Assembly: GCA_017524805.1 (NCBI GenBank)
Contig: JAFXUX010000007.1
Location: 1-64,000, forward strand
Length of the DNA stretch: 64,000 nt
Direction of reading: 5' to 3'
Source of the DNA: Candidatus Methanomethylophilaceae archaeon
GTDB taxonomy: Archaea > Thermoplasmatota > Thermoplasmata > Methanomassiliicoccales > Methanomethylophilaceae
Shown: positions 52,158 through 60,629 of the stretch, in pieces
How the letters are laid out: each line of letters opens with the position of its first letter
Position numbering within the stretch: the stretch's first letter is position 1
Position numbers and translations under genes: made by a program
Notes under the pieces: model-generated
The model's database searches: none
Seen by the model: the letters and a program-made list of their open reading frames with translations, nothing else
What the model was told of the DNA's origin: nothing

Positions 52158-53633
52158 TCATTCGTCAGATGCGGGCCTTTTCTTGGGCCTGTACTCGAGG
52201 TTCACGGCTCCGGTACCCAACGTCACCGGCTGGCCGACGATGATGTTCTCGGTCACACCTTCGAGGCGGTCCACTTCGCCGGCGGTCGCGGCGCTGAGCA
52301 GATGCGCGGTGCTGACCTCGAACGCGGCCCTGGACAGGACCGAGGATTTCTTGCCTGAGATACCGTGCCTTCCGATGGACCTCACGGATCCGTCGTTGGT
52401 CATGAGATCGGCGACCAGCATGATGTGCCTGGCGTCGACGTTCAGACCCGCTCCGCCCAAGGTGCTCTCGGCCTCGTGGATCAGCGCGTTCCTGGCGGCT
52501 TCGATGCCCAGGACGCTGGCCACCTCCAGGATGCTGTTGGTCATGACGTGGTCCGCGTCGACTCCCCTGACCCTCAGTACGTCTTTGAGGTTGCTTCCCT
52601 CGGTGATGATCTCGAACGCTCCGTTCTTCTCGGAAAGGACGGCTCTGGTTATGCCGTCGATGCCTTTGATCTTGGCGTCCTTGATCGTGTCGTACATGAG
52701 CTGGAGCTTCTTGTAAGAACCCTCGGGGCAGCTGACGATGATGTTGTCCTCGGCGTCGATGGTGACGTTCCCGCGGACGACCTTGATCTTGTTCAGCCTG
52801 TCCCTGATGGATTCGACGGTCATCTCCTTGTTGGTGATCTTGCTCATGTTGGGCCTGATCCTCAGCTGGGTGTGGTCGATGTCCGTCTCTATGTCGGCGA
52901 CGTCCAGGAGAGTGGTGATCTCGATCTCGGAAGCGATGTGCGTAGCTATCCCCTTGTCCATGGGGCCGCCGTCGATCTCCCTGACGAGAGGGATGGTCAT
53001 CGAAGGCGTGGCCGGGTGGATCCTGGCGTCTACTATCTCGATCAGCCTGGGGAGACCCTGGGTAACGGTGACGCTCGCGACTCCCGCGTAGTGGAAGGTA
53101 CGCATGTTCATCTGGGTACCGGGCTCTCCGAGGGAATGGGCCGCCATCACCCCGGCGGACTCGTTCTGATCCATCATGTGGGAGATGTACATCTTGTGGG
53201 CGGCCTTGATAAGAGCGTCGCCCCTCATGCCGGCGTATTCCTCGCAGTCCTCAGGATAAGCCTTCTTGATGCGGGCCGCTATGTCCATGATTATCTTCAC
53301 GGGGAGCTCGGGCTCCAGGCCTTTCGCGAACTCCTAGAGCTTCAGTTCGGCCGCGTCGCAGGCGCCGAGCTTGGAGAAGGTCTCGAAGAACTTCGCCGGC
53401 TCGGGTTCCGGCGCGGGCGCCCTCTTCGTCTTGGGCGAGGATGACGACGGCTTGTCGCGGATCGCCTTTATGATCGCGGCTGCGCGGTCCTCCGGGATTC
53501 CCAGATCCGCGATGGCTTCTGCGGTGGATTCACCGATGGCACCCATGGTGTTGAAGGCCCTTATGAGGGTGTTCGCCTCCTCCAAGGTCACGCCCCTTTT
53601 CATGAGCGCGTTAAGCGTGTCTTTCTTTGCCAT
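52158..53633 (-). CDS. rpoA2: RNA polymerase subunit A'' (Rpo1C) with in-frame TAG
   Basis: 491 residues if the in-frame TAG at 53334-53336 (codon 100) is read as an amino acid. The part after the TAG carries the A'' core: [26 protein letters not shown] (trigger-loop region), [12 protein letters not shown], and the C-terminal ending near GTGAVNLEY. The part before it has its own ATG at 53633 with GGAGG 8 nt upstream, 1 nt after rpoA1, and a helix-hairpin-helix-like domain (residues 5-60). No usable start lies between the TAG and the core, and the reading frame is continuous. Read-through, most likely as pyrrolysine, is needed for a normal protein. It ends in TGA. Confidence 0.92.
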
Positions 53634-53634
53634 A

Positions 53635-56577
53635 TCACTCGCCTCCGTCGTCTCCGAAGTCGTCGTCGCCTTCCTCGATGTCCTCTTCGTTCTCATCGTC
53701 GGAGAAGTCCATCTCATCCTTCTCGCGGGTGGCGTAATCGTCTCCGCTGTCCTTGATCTCGGGGTGGATGAGCTTCTCGGCCTCGTCCTCGGGGAGGACC
53801 TCGTAGAAGAGATCGTCGAGGTCGATCGCCTTTCCGCCGACGGTCCTGGCCGGGTCGACCCCGTCCTCTCCATACTTGAACTGGATGATCGTGCCGGAGG
53901 TGTTCCTGACGGTCCCGTCGGACATGAGCTTCAGGTCCTCGAGAGCTGACACCAGCCTCCTCTGCATGTATCCGGATCTGGAAGTCCTGACCGCGGTATC
54001 GACCAGTCCTTCCCTCCCTCCCATGGCGTGGAAGAAGAACTCGGTGGGCGACAGGCCGGATTTGTATGAGTTGGCGCAGAACCCTTTGGAGAACGCTCCG
54101 AGGTCTCCCTTGTCGAAGTGGGAGAGAGTCCTGCCGTGGTATCCTCTGGACAGCCTCTCACCGCGGACGGACTGCTGGCCGACGCAACCTGCCATCTGGG
54201 ACAGGTTGAGCATCGAACCGCGGGCCCCGGACTTCGCCATGATGACGGCGGGGTTGTCCATACCGAGGTATTTCTCTGCGGTGGTACCGGCGGAGTCACG
54301 GGCGCCGGAGAGAAGCTCCTGGATCTTGACCTCCAAGGTCTCCTTCACCGAGCGGCCGGGGACAGCTTCGAAGGTTCCCTCGTGGAACGACCTGATCGAA
54401 TCGTTCACCTTGGTGACGGCTTCCTCGATGCTTCCCTCGATCTCCCTGATCGCTTCCGGCGGGATGTCCTCGTCGCTGATTCCGGTGCTGAACCCGTGGT
54501 TCATGATCGCGCCCAGAACCAGCCTGGTCACCTGGTTGATGAATTTGGCGGCGCGGGAGGACCCGTAGTCGCGGGCTATGCGGTCGAGGATCTTCCCCTT
54601 GCTGTTCCCGATGCCTCTGACGTCGATGGTACCGCACTCGAGGTTGCCGTCGCGGATCTTGACGTAGGCGTCATATTCGCACGCCTCCTTCTTGCACCCG
54701 TCGCGGCAGTTGTGGCAGATGTTCGCCTTGAAGGTGGCGTTGAAATCCTCGGGGAGGATGATGGAGAACAGCTGCTTGCCGGTCCAGTAGGGTTCGCCTC
54801 TGCCGTCGGTTCCGGCGGGCTCGGGCATGTCGATCGACCAATCCTTGGAGTCGACCAACGCGCTGTGCTCCCTGTCGTCGGGATCCGCGGCTGCCTTCTC
54901 GGCGGCGGTCCTGACCGGGAGCTTGAACAGTATGTTGGAAGTCTGGAACCTGTCGAAGTGGGTGTCCCCGTGGGTCAGGTAGTACGCGCCGGTGATGTGG
55001 TCGTGGATGGCGCCGATGATCGGGCCTCCGTACCTGGGAGACAGGATGTTCTCCTGGACCTGCATGAGTATGCGGGCTTCCGCGCGTGCCTCATCGGACT
55101 GGAGGACGTGGAGGTTCATCTCGTCCCCGTCGAAGTCTGCGTTGTAAGGCGGGCAGTCGCACAGGTTGAACCTGAAGGTCTTTCCCTCCATTATCCTGAC
55201 GCGGTGAGCCATCATCGACATCCTGTGGAGAGAAGGCTGCCTGTTGAACAGGACTACGTCGCCCTCTATGAGCTGCCTCTCGACGGTGTAATCCACGTCG
55301 ATGTTCTCGGCGACTTCGGAGGCGTTCCTCTCCGTGATCCTGATCCTCCTTCCGTCGGCGCGGATGACGTAGTTGGCTCCGGGCTGGTACGGGAACGTGA
55401 GCTTATCGGACATCGGCCCGCGCCTGATTATGGCCCTGACCTTCTCGATGTTGTTCGCGTTGACGCGCAGGGGGACGGTGAGCTCCCTGGCGGCGAATAT
55501 CGGCACGCCGACGTCGTTGATGGACAGCAGCGGGTCGGGGGAGATGACGGTACGGGCGGAGAAATTCACGCGCTTACCGGACAGGTTGGATCTGAAGCGG
55601 CCTTCCTTCCCTTTCAGCCTCTGGGCCAGGGTTTTGAGCGGGCGGCCGGATCTGTGCCTCGCGGGCGGGATGCCGGAGGTCTGGTTGTCGAAATAGGTGG
55701 TGACGTGGTACTGGAGCAGCTCCCACAGGTCCTCGACGATAAGCTGCGGAGCGCCTGCGTCGCGGTTCTCTCCGAGCCTCTGGTTGATCCTGAGAACATC
55801 CACGAGCTTGTGGGTGAGATCGTCCTCGGATCTGTCTCCGGAATCCAGGGTGATGGACGGCCTGACTGTCACCGGAGGCACTGCCAAAGCGGTGAGAACC
55901 ATCCACTCGGGCCTGCAGGTCTCGGGGTTCATTCCCAGCGCTCTGAGGTCGTCGTCGGAGATCTTCTCCAGCCTCTCGCGCACCTCTTTGGGGGTGAGCT
56001 TGCTGCTGGCGGAAGTTTTGACAGTTCCAGGTGCAGTCTTCTGCAGGGTCTTGTCGCCGCTGTCCAGCCTGAAAGTGGTGGGCTTGTCCAGCTTGATCTT
56101 GACCTGCTTCGTCCTGCAGTAGGGGCACTCCATCCCTTTGGAAGCGCTCTTGGCTGTCTCTTTGGAGAACCCTTTGAGGTCGGCGGTGCCTCCCCCGAGC
56201 TCCTCCATCCTTTCCATGCTCTCCTTGCGCTCCTTGACGGTGTCGGGGTCCAGCATGAGCCTCCCGCAGTTGCTGCAGGTGGACTCCAGCATCACCCTGA
56301 TGTCTTTGATGAATCCGACGTGGAGGACCGGCAGAGCCAGCTCGATGTGGCCGAAGTGTCCGGGACACTCGTCGACCTTGCAGCCGCAGGTCTTGCAGCG
56401 GAGCCCTGGTTCGATGACTCCCATGTGCGGGTCCATGAGCCCTCTGGATATGGGATATCCCTCGTCGTCATATGTGTCCGCGGTGATGATCTCGACCTTG
56501 GACATCTTCCTGATCTCTTCCGGGGAGATGCAGGAGAATTTGATCGAGCCGATCTTCTTCGTGATCTCATTAGTCAT
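53635..56577 (-). CDS. rpoA1: RNA polymerase subunit A' (Rpo1N)
   Basis: About 980 aa. It carries the clamp and the active-site Asp triad. Motifs: zinc sites [19 protein letters not shown] and CSNCGRLM, the catalytic [21 protein letters not shown] and [21 protein letters not shown]. The C-terminus has an unusual acidic tail ([21 protein letters not shown]). The ATG at 56577 overlaps the rpoB TGA (ATGA). I saw no CGA among its many arginine codons. Next in the operon is rpoA2, 1 nt away. Confidence 0.97.
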
Positions 56578-59500
56578 CTCAAATCCTCCAGCTGAAGCCT
56601 CATGGCGACACCCATCGACAGGAGCTCGTCCATGAGGAGCTTGAATGCGTACGATGTCTGGACCAGATAGACGTTGGTCTTCTTGCAGACAGGGCAGAAC
56701 AGCGCCCCGTTCTTGTCCATGATGGCGATATGGCCGCACTTGGGGTTTCCGCATACCCACTGCTTGGTACCGTCGGATTCGTCCAGGAGACGGTCCTTGA
56801 TGACCATCGCGGCTCCGTGGCCTATGAGACAGTCACGTTCCATCTCACCGAACCTGAGACCTCCCTGCCTGGAACGTCCTTCGGTAGGCTGCCTGGTAAG
56901 GATCTGCACAGGCCCTCTGGACCTGACGTGCATCTTCCCGCTGACCATGTGGTGCAGCTTCTCGTAGAAGATGACTCCGGTGTAGACGTCCGCCTCGATC
57001 ATGCGGCCGGTCCTTCCGTCGTACATGACCTCTTTCCCGGTGTCCCTGAATCCGTTCCTCATGAGCCCGTCGCGGATGGAAGTCTCGGTCTCTCCGGAGA
57101 ACGCGGTACCGTCGATGATGCGGCCTTCCATGGCTCCCACTTTACCGGCGATCATCTCGAGGACGTGCCCGATGGTCATACGGGAAGGAATACCGTGGGG
57201 GTTGACGACGAGATCGGGGGTGATACCGTCGGCGGTGAAGGGCATGTCGCACTGGTCGACGAGCCTTCCGACGACTCCTTTCTGTCCGAACCTGGAGCAG
57301 AACTTGTCACCGAGCTCCGGGATCCTCTCGTCCCTGACTTTGACGCGGACGAGCCTGGACCCGTTCTCGGACTCGGTAATCATGACGGAGTCGACGTATC
57401 CGGTCTCCCCGGGCCTGACGGTGATGGACGTCTCCCTCCTCTTCTGGGTGGTGAGGGCGTCCCCGTTCTCCTCTAGGAACCTGGGCGGAGAAGTCTTCCC
57501 TATGAGGACATCGGATCCGGACACCCTGCTTTCGGGAAGGATCAGACCGTCCTCTCCCAGGGATGCGTAAGCGGAATCCGTGCGCGCGCCCATGATCTCG
57601 GCGTCGGGGATTTCGAAGTGGTCCTCCTGTCCGCCGGGGTAGCGGCGCTCCTCGGTGCGGTAGGACCTCATGAAGGTAGACCTTCCGAGGCCTCTCTGCA
57701 CGGAGCTCTTGTTCATGACGAGAGCGTCTTCGATGTTGTATCCGTGGTACGAAAGGACGGCGATGCAGAAGTTCTGTCCGGCCGGCCTGTGCTCGTACTT
57801 CATGATCTTCATGGTCTCGGTCTGGACCATCGGGACCTGCGGATACTGCATGAGGTGGCCCCTGGTGTCGGGCCTGATGCGGTAGTTGGCTGTGGGTATT
57901 CCCAGAGCCTGCTTACCCATACCCGCACCCATGGTGATACGGGGCGCGGAGTTGTGCTCCGGATACGGAACGATACCGGATGCGACTCCCAGGATGATCA
58001 TGGGATCGACTTCCATGTGGGTGTATTTGGGTTCGATTTTGGACGGCACGCCGAACTCGGAGGAGCACCATTTGCACTTGAGCACGGCGGTGTCTGTGTT
58101 GGCTCCCACGTTCATCCAGTCGACGTCTTCGGGGGACAGCGCGTGGTGGCACTCGGGGCATCTGGCGGGGACGTCATAAGGCGAGACGAGAACGAGCGCA
58201 TCCTCCTCTTCCTCGGCGTCTATCCACTCCGCCATGCCGTCGCGGAACAGGTCGTCCCACCTGTACTTCGGAGCGTCGGGGCGGGTCTCGTCGAGAGAAT
58301 CGCGGATCTTCTCGACGATCTTCCTGTTGAGAGCGAGGACTCCGTTCCTGATGATGAGCAGAGGCCTTCTGAGACGGCCTTCGTCGCAGTTTATGATGAC
58401 CTCGTCCATGTCCTCGTCGTAGCGGATGTTGATCTGATTGGAGATTATGCCGTGCCTCCTGCACTCCCTTATGTCGTCCACGAGCCTTCTGGCGTCGCGG
58501 TGGATTCCGCGGAGGTCTCCGTTGACGAACACGCGGGTCCCGTCGCCGGATTTGACGTCGTCGACTCCGCGCTCCCTGAGAGTGAAACTTACATCGCGCT
58601 CGGGCACGCCTTCGGATACGTTGATGATGAGCGCCGCATTCTTCACCAGACCGCAGTTCTGACCTTCAGGGGTCTCGGACGGGCACAGCCTTCCCCACTG
58701 GGTGGGGTGCAGGTCACGGGCCTCGAAGTGGGGCTGGCTCCTGGTCAGGGAAGAGGTGATCCTCCTGAGGTGGGACATGGCCGACAGGTTGGAAGTCCTG
58801 TCGAGAAGCTGGGAGACACCGGCGCGCCCTCCGACCCAGTTCCCGGTGGAAAGGGCGTGGATGAGCTTGTGCGTAAGGATGTCGGGGCGTATGGACGAAG
58901 CGATGGTAGGCGTCTCGTTCCTCTTCCTTCCCCAGTTCCTCTCGAGCTGGTACTTCAGGTCTTTCATGAGGCTGCTGAAGCTGGTCCTGAAAAGATCTTC
59001 CATCAGGTCTCCGGAAAGCTTGAGCCTCTTGTTGGCGTAGTGGTCCTTGTCGTCCTGGTTCCTGAAGCCGAGCGAAAGCTCGAGGACGGAGCGTGCGATG
59101 CGCCCGAGGAAGATGGCCTTCTTCTTGCGGTCTTCGATGGTGTCGCCGAGATGCGGGAGAAGGGAGCGGTCCAGGATGTTCTCGACTTTCTTGATCCTGT
59201 ACTCTTTGGCCTGGCCGGCGGCGAAGTTCCTCTCGAGATACAGAATAGCGTCGTCCCTGGTGTGGAATCCGTTGGGGGCGTAGCTCTTCTTGTCGTAGGA
59301 AGCCTCGATGTTCGCGTAGACCAGGTTGGTCATGTTGGGATCGGACACGATGACATCGAAGATCTCCTGGTCGGATTCCATGCCCAGAGCCTTCATGACC
59401 GCGACCAGCGGAATGGAAGTGGATATGACTGGGACGGACACCATGAGGCTGCCGTCCTTCTTCATGTCGACGGTGGTGAGCGCGCGGAATCCGTCTTTCT

Positions 59501-60212
59501 GGGAGAAGACTTTGGCGACCTCGAAGGAGCTGCCGTACCTCTCGCCGTATTCGACCATGACTCTGTTGGGAGCAAGGTCTTCCAGAGTTATCAGGACCCT
59601 CTCGGAACCTGCGATGATGAAGTACCCGCCGGGCTCCTCCGGATCCTCCATGCATCTTATGATCTCCTGCCTGTATTCGGCATCGGACATCTCGCGCTCT
59701 TTATGCCTCTGCATGACCTGCCTGTTCAGGTTGCATCCGGCGGATTTGACCATCATAGGGAGATCCCCGACGCGGATCCATTTGTCTTCCTCGGGCATCT
59801 CCTTCTTTTTGCCGTCTATATAGATTTCGAAATGGACGTAGACGGGGGACATGTAGTTCAGGTTTCTGAGCCTGGCTTCCATGGGGGTCAGCTCATGGGT
59901 GTATCCGTTGGCCTCCTTCATGCTGGGCGCGCCTATGCGGACGGTAGGCTCTCCGACGACCTCACCGGATTCGTCTCTCTCCCTTCCGACGCGGATGACG
60001 ACGTCGACGCCGTTGGTGCGCTCCGGATCCAGCCTTATGATTCCGCGCTCGGCGTCGTCGGTGGGGACCCTGAGTTCGTCGACGACCTGCTGCATGCGGC
60101 TGACTTTGGCGTTCTTCTTGTTGGTGTCCAACGGCAGAAAGTCGTCGAAAGACGATATGTGATGGGATACGATGTCATGATCGGCGAAATACAATCTTAC
60201 TAAGTCCCTCAG
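56574..60212 (-). CDS. rpoB: RNA polymerase subunit B (Rpo2), probable CTG start
   Basis: About 1212 aa, second-largest subunit, unsplit. Motifs: zinc finger CPECHHAL...[35 protein letters not shown], and the C-terminal zinc ribbon [10 protein letters not shown]...CPVCKK. Homology to archaeal RpoB begins before the first possible TTG (60194): the residues [14 protein letters not shown] align with the usual N-terminus. Just upstream in frame is a CTG at 60210-60212, seven nucleotides after AGGGGG(TGA), a near-perfect Shine-Dalgarno at the end of rpoH. I therefore place the start at CTG. Its TGA overlaps the rpoA1 ATG. Confidence 0.93.
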
Positions 60213-60216
60213 CCTT

Positions 60217-60516
60217 TCACCCCCTGATTACGAGCCTGTACCCAACGGATTTGTAGGCTGTCTCGCTTTTTCTTACGACTTCGATGACGCAGCCTTCCTC
60301 GATGGAATCCTATTTTCCGAGGAGCTCCCTCACCTCGGCCGTGTTCTCCAGGGCTTTGATCCCCGGATCGCTCTTTTTGATTTTGGGGAGCTTATCTTTG
60401 GTTATGCCTTTGGATTCGAGCACTTCCTTCTCCTCATCGAAGCTGAGGAGCCTGTGCTCAGGCACGAGCTCATGTCTCAGAACATTGAATGCGTTGTCCT
60501 CTGCCAAGTGATTCAC
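60217..60516 (-). CDS. rpoH: RNA polymerase subunit H (Rpo5) with in-frame TAG
   Basis: 99 residues if the TAG at 60310-60312 (codon 69) is read as an amino acid. Residues 1-68 give the first half of Rpo[18 protein letters not shown] and [16 protein letters not shown]. The remaining 30 codons after TAG give the conserved second half, [24 protein letters not shown], ending in TGA. RpoH without this strand pair would not fold, so the TAG must be decoded. The start is GTG 60516 with GGAG 8 nt upstream; a TTG nine bases later is an alternative. The TATA-like CTTATACC is near 60548-60555. It is followed 4 nt later by rpoB. Confidence 0.93.
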
Positions 60517-60629
60517 CGATCCATCTCCGGTCCGGTCGGCCGGTATAAGCTGTTTCCAAAAAATTCGCGTGTGAATGTCATTGTGTCCTCATACTTGATC
60601 CGCCGTCGATCGCTCATGAAGTTGATTGG

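Follow-up and report, generated by a model that had tools for sequence, protein, structure and literature searches.

The rpoH gene of this archaeon, one of a group of gut methanogens, encodes subunit Rpo5 (RpoH) of RNA polymerase; it carries an in-frame TAG and is, with a probability of about 0.9, intact and translated into one chain in which UAG would be read as pyrrolysine, UAG being in effect a sense codon in the lineage. The gene lies on the minus strand of the window (the whole stretch of 64,000 nucleotides that was analysed), the strand not having been given in the first-pass annotation, and the segment 60217-60516 reads V...LLGK-TAG-DSIEEG...RLVIRG-TGA. A single in-frame TAG is present, followed by 30 codons and then TGA, and RpoH sequence flanks it on both sides in a single frame. 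With TAG taken as a residue, the product matched the Pfam family RNA_pol_Rpb5_C (PF01191) over positions 1-73 of 73 (E 3e-22) and also matched the archaeal Rpo5 chains of solved polymerases in the PDB. Its NF007129 score of 80.4 bits was just under the cut-off of 83, a shortfall probably due to an insertion found in the clade. The AlphaFold2 model of Rpo5 was of moderate confidence (mean pLDDT 68) and a Foldseek search with the model gave archaeal RNA polymerase chain H as top matches (E 2e-7 to 7e-7); the predicted fold is the Rpb5 C-terminal fold, as in archaeal Rpo5 and eukaryotic Rpb5. The full-length Pfam match and the conservation described below confirmed the first-pass description of an in-frame TAG with RpoH sequence on both sides in one frame and a TGA end. 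The operon order is rpoH-rpoB-rpoA'-rpoA'', with rpoH directly upstream of rpoB (Table 1).

Table 1. Coordinates of the RNA polymerase genes and associated features in the window.
Feature	Position	Strand	Remarks
rpoH (Rpo5)	60217..60507	minus	96 residues from TTG 60507, if TAG is read as pyrrolysine
rpoH terminator (TGA)	60219-60217	minus	
In-frame TAG in rpoH	60310..60312	minus	codon 66 from TTG, 69 from GTG
Clade insertion AEVRELLGK, ~9 residues	60313..60339	minus	from alignment and AlphaFold2; edges uncertain by ~2 codons
GGTGA, Shine-Dalgarno-like	60513..60517	minus	precedes the TTG start
rpoB	56574..60194	minus	directly downstream of rpoH; without in-frame TAG
rpoA' (Rpo1N)	53635..56577	minus	without in-frame TAG
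rpoA'' (Rpo1C)	52158..53633	minus	491 residues with TAG as a residue; ends in TGA; last polymerase gene
In-frame TAG in rpoA''	53334..53336	minus	codon 100

From the sequence, TTG 60507 is probably the start of rpoH rather than GTG 60516, because GGTGA upstream of it resembles a ribosome-binding site, TTG or GTG is retained at this position in relatives, and a TAA cuts the upstream GTG off from the TTG/GTG start site in two of them (G050 and G032). The upstream GTG (60516-60514), from which the product would have 99 residues, is itself part of GGTGA, 5-6 bases ahead of the TTG/GTG at 60507. With the TTG start, TAG is therefore codon 66; its earlier numbering as codon 69 was right as to the frame, but codon 66 is likelier since GTG 60516 is probably not a start. 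In the 5' regions of rpoH, the upstream GTG is very often immediately preceded by TAG in many relatives (L014-L024, for example), and the resulting TAGGTGA doubles as a Shine-Dalgarno-like motif. The TAGs that appeared in the rpoH search of G015, G016 and G033 were 5' of the TTG start, so they were rejected as internal TAGs.

Alignment with the rest of the order showed that the clade insertion directly precedes the rpoH TAG, and at this place canonical archaeal Rpo5 is even shorter than the rest of the order. In the AlphaFold2 model the insertion forms an extra short helix (pLDDT about 70), and the TAG residue is placed, with moderate confidence, in a loop ahead of the two C-terminal strands. 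The first-pass annotation had placed the TAG mid-way in a universally conserved subunit; it is within RpoH, but at a tolerant, lineage-specific site in the insertion loop, outside the conserved core, and therefore no universally conserved residue is replaced. What follows the TAG in the alignment, with the strands RKS.TA...YRLV, belongs to the best-conserved portion of the family.

The survey of the order covered 147 genomes, 131 of which had an rpoH match. An internal TAG was found in six of the 131 matches, all six with the insertion, and in no other rpoH of the order among the genomes with a match. Comparison of the relatives' codons at the site, as had been proposed in the first-pass annotation, thus gave TAG in 6/6 separately assembled genomes with the insertion. 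Two of the relatives are the metagenome-assembled genomes Tb.RUG.20 and SIG7. The TAG is invariant in all six between variable codons (K/G/S/P and D/E/T), with 18 of 90 codons identical and 68 of 90 residues invariant among the six. The pN/pS of rpoH was 0.15 before the TAG and 0.12 over the 30 codons after it (six genomes), pS was near saturation, and 19 of the 28 variable columns after the TAG changed at third positions. Selection is purifying on both sides of the TAG, strongly so in the part that follows it, which evolves as in-frame coding sequence. An RpoB tree, which could take in four of the TAG-bearing genomes, placed these together to one side of a branch with full support. Two genomes with a TAG-bearing rpoH, G085 and G093, had no pylS match, these genomes being only 82% and 61% complete. 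A lack of rpoH in the relative G084 was considered and rejected as missing data, its contig ending before the expected place.

A second in-frame TAG, not listed in the first-pass annotation, was found in rpoA''. It lies in an N-terminal extension present order-wide, approximately 10 residues ahead of the canonical A'' domain; sister species have AAG (Lys) or other codons at the aligned position. This TAG was present in 7/7 genomes of the clade, namely the six with the rpoH TAG and G084, and was absent elsewhere in the order (rpoA'' found in 130 genomes). As this TAG precedes the canonical domain, translation from an internal start at GTG 53300 could in theory avoid it.

Stop codon statistics were obtained with our own codon-usage gene caller from a 417 kb sample made up of the window and of stretches no longer than 20 kb. 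The 48 gene ends called in the window were 41 TGA, 7 TAA and 0 TAG; as far as these calls go, the earlier statement that the window has no gene ending in TAG is correct. The whole 417 kb sample gave 321 TGA, 47 TAA and 16 TAG, and 12 of the 16 TAGs run on in frame into clearly coding sequence, so that TAG serves as terminator in no more than 4 of about 372 stops. Two of these four are in transposase genes (one IS66-like, one near the end of an IS630-like gene), one is in a short call of doubtful status, and the last, in a 188-codon gene, comes 5 codons before TGA. TAG is a sense codon first in this genome and hardly ever a terminator.

Individual TAGs of the sample differed in their setting. 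The gene at L049:5706-6284 (G000:C8) has two TAGs in its last five codons before TGA and is the genome's best candidate for a TAG terminator, whether true or leaky. Transposase genes with in-frame TAG were located at L061:2886-3931 (IS630-like) and L051:2806-3696 (IS66-like), and it is around transposase elements that the sample's few possible TAG terminators are concentrated. In the clade relative G084, a long coding frame on contig C1 (L135:176-1852, plus strand) perhaps ends at TAG; 132 non-coding codons separate this TAG from the next stop and it is possibly a genuine terminator.

Retention of TAG was assessed in one search of 15 TAG-flanking segments against the clade. The two polymerase sites were retained in 11/11 cases, compared to 0/6 for the ferrous iron transporter FeoB, 3/6 for a MinD-like protein and 4/6 for a HAD phosphatase, the latter three being scored only as presence of TAG within the matching stretch. 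The FeoB TAG (codon 150; L061:15960-17864, G000:C18) is absent even from the closest relative, G084, and is probably recent and neutral. The TAGs of the MinD/ParA-like ATPase (L053:16792-17454) and the HAD phosphatase (L046:1073-1840) occur in part of the clade. The higher retention at the polymerase TAGs hints at constraint; the relatives are not independent and 68/90 Rpo5 residues are invariant anyway, and for this reason a function of the TAGs is not claimed.

The source genome (1.95 Mb, 47 contigs, 98% complete) encodes the complete machinery for pyrrolysine. A tRNA-Pyl with anticodon CUA is followed on contig C25 by pylS, pylB, pylC and pylD, so the search for pylTSBCD suggested in the first-pass annotation found all five genes, a TAG-decoding tRNA among them, whose absence had been named there as refuting the proposal. 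PylS, PylB, PylC and PylD scored above the curated cut-offs. PylS is the short archaeal form, with 277 residues from the first ATG, a form that was described for the order (PMC3941956). Genes for dimethylamine and trimethylamine methyltransferases with in-frame TAG, identified with family models, adjoin the pyl genes. This gene set and the scarcity of TAG as terminator support the first-pass proposal that TAG is decoded, probably as pyrrolysine. A PYLIS search gave no RF01982 match in the genome while the positive control was detected, and at the rpoH TAG no covarying base pairs were found (fold z-score -0.64); decoding of UAG is best read as plain, probably proceeding without a special RNA element. 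The release factor aRF1 is single-copy, and its NIKS and YxCxxxF motifs are of the usual kind and do not differ from those of relatives without the rpoH TAG. These motifs thus show no change that would keep aRF1 off UAG and explain the reassignment, and by its sequence aRF1 may still terminate there.

Termination at the rpoH TAG would make it a real or regulated stop, giving an Rpo5 of 65-68 residues or a mixture of short and long forms in which the supply of pyrrolysine tunes polymerase assembly. The ordinary stop-recognition motifs of aRF1 agree with this, as does a TAG conserved amid variable codons, which a regulatory stop would also be. We consider it quite improbable, since the truncated form would lose the most conserved C-terminal strands, the codons past the TAG are under strong purifying selection, TAG almost never terminates genes in this genome and the site has no conserved RNA structure. 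An error of sequencing or assembly, or a pseudogene in decay, is for practical purposes refuted by the same TAG in six separate assemblies with near-saturated synonymous divergence, in genomes where this is the sole rpoH match, even though only draft or metagenome assemblies are involved; the gene also sits in its normal operon, and the chance of such an artefact is close to nil.

It is very improbable that TAG is decoded by some other suppressor tRNA that inserts an amino acid other than pyrrolysine. The scan for CUA tRNAs covered about 21% of the genome, which gives such a tRNA some room, but tRNA-Pyl was the only one seen in the part scanned. Methylamine methyltransferase families with TAG require pyrrolysine, and such TAG-bearing methyltransferases are present in this genome. 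Reading of UAG as pyrrolysine in an intact rpoH is thus the explanation that we favour.

Use of TAG outside the methylamine methyltransferases, as claimed in the first-pass annotation, was found here and had already been published for the order (PMC4153887, PMC5011839); what is new is the RNA polymerase instance. A total of 16 pyrrolysine proteins were predicted in 'Ca. Methanomethylophilus alvus', where TAG makes up 1.6% of stops (PMC4153887), and 46 genes were predicted with pyrrolysine in strain ISO4-H5 (PMC5011839), in both cases including major genes outside the methylamine methyltransferases. Conserved genes with TAG given in these papers include those for digeranylgeranylglyceryl phosphate synthase, MtxX and Cas1, and adenylate kinase and mmp8 (PMC4153887, PMC5011839). 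Both organisms belong to the same order as the present genome and share with it a pyl system without the N-terminal PylS domain, the rarity of TAG as a stop and in-frame TAG in conserved genes. In contrast, the table for M. alvus contains no RNA polymerase subunit (PMC4153887) and none is among those of the 46 ISO4-H5 genes that are named in the text of that paper (PMC5011839), whereas here two subunits have a TAG conserved clade-wide. Our literature search found no paper reporting pyrrolysine in RNA polymerase. The methyltransferases MtmB, MtbB and MttB resemble Rpo5 in having an in-frame TAG read as pyrrolysine (putatively so in Rpo5); their pyrrolysine is catalytic, whereas the Rpo5 TAG is in a lineage-specific surface loop without known catalytic role. 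In the 'Pyl code' of some archaea (Science 2025), TAG is reportedly reassigned to pyrrolysine in full, as found by proteomics in cultured archaea. Those archaea are like the present genome in that TAG is a general sense codon, proteome-wide and nearly absent as terminator; the evidence there is reported to come from proteomics of cultures, whereas here it is genomic and concerns an uncultured clade.

Under the favoured reading, tRNA-Pyl(CUA), charged by PylRS, would insert pyrrolysine at the rpoH UAG. The rpoH TAG would have a single origin in the common ancestor of a Methanomassiliicoccales subclade, having come in or with the insertion that lies, as a surface loop, where the last helix of Rpo5 gives way to its beta strands. 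On that stem a separate TAG would also have arisen in the N-terminal extension of rpoA'', probably by a change of AAG to TAG, and both polymerase TAGs would have been retained ever since. We infer the identity of the residue as pyrrolysine, its efficient decoding and the dependence of the cell on it, in every cell according to the first-pass annotation; RNA polymerase assembly, and hence growth, would then need pyrrolysine even without methylamine use. It is unlikely that the polymerase pyrrolysines are under selection for function, beyond being neutral substitutions tolerated after TAG was freed; examples of such a function would be assembly or activity tied to the supply of pyrrolysine, or a contact between Rpo5 and Rpo1C.

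For the clade, standard annotation would give an RpoH truncated at 68 residues and an RpoA'' with a start over 100 residues late. If pyrrolysine is needed for RNA polymerase, the pyl genes would be essential and not an optional cassette for methylamine use, which would explain why a genome can no longer give up a stop codon once it is recoded. Two sites in one enzyme of one clade provide a defined place to ask whether pyrrolysine is of use or merely neutral in proteins other than the methyltransferases.
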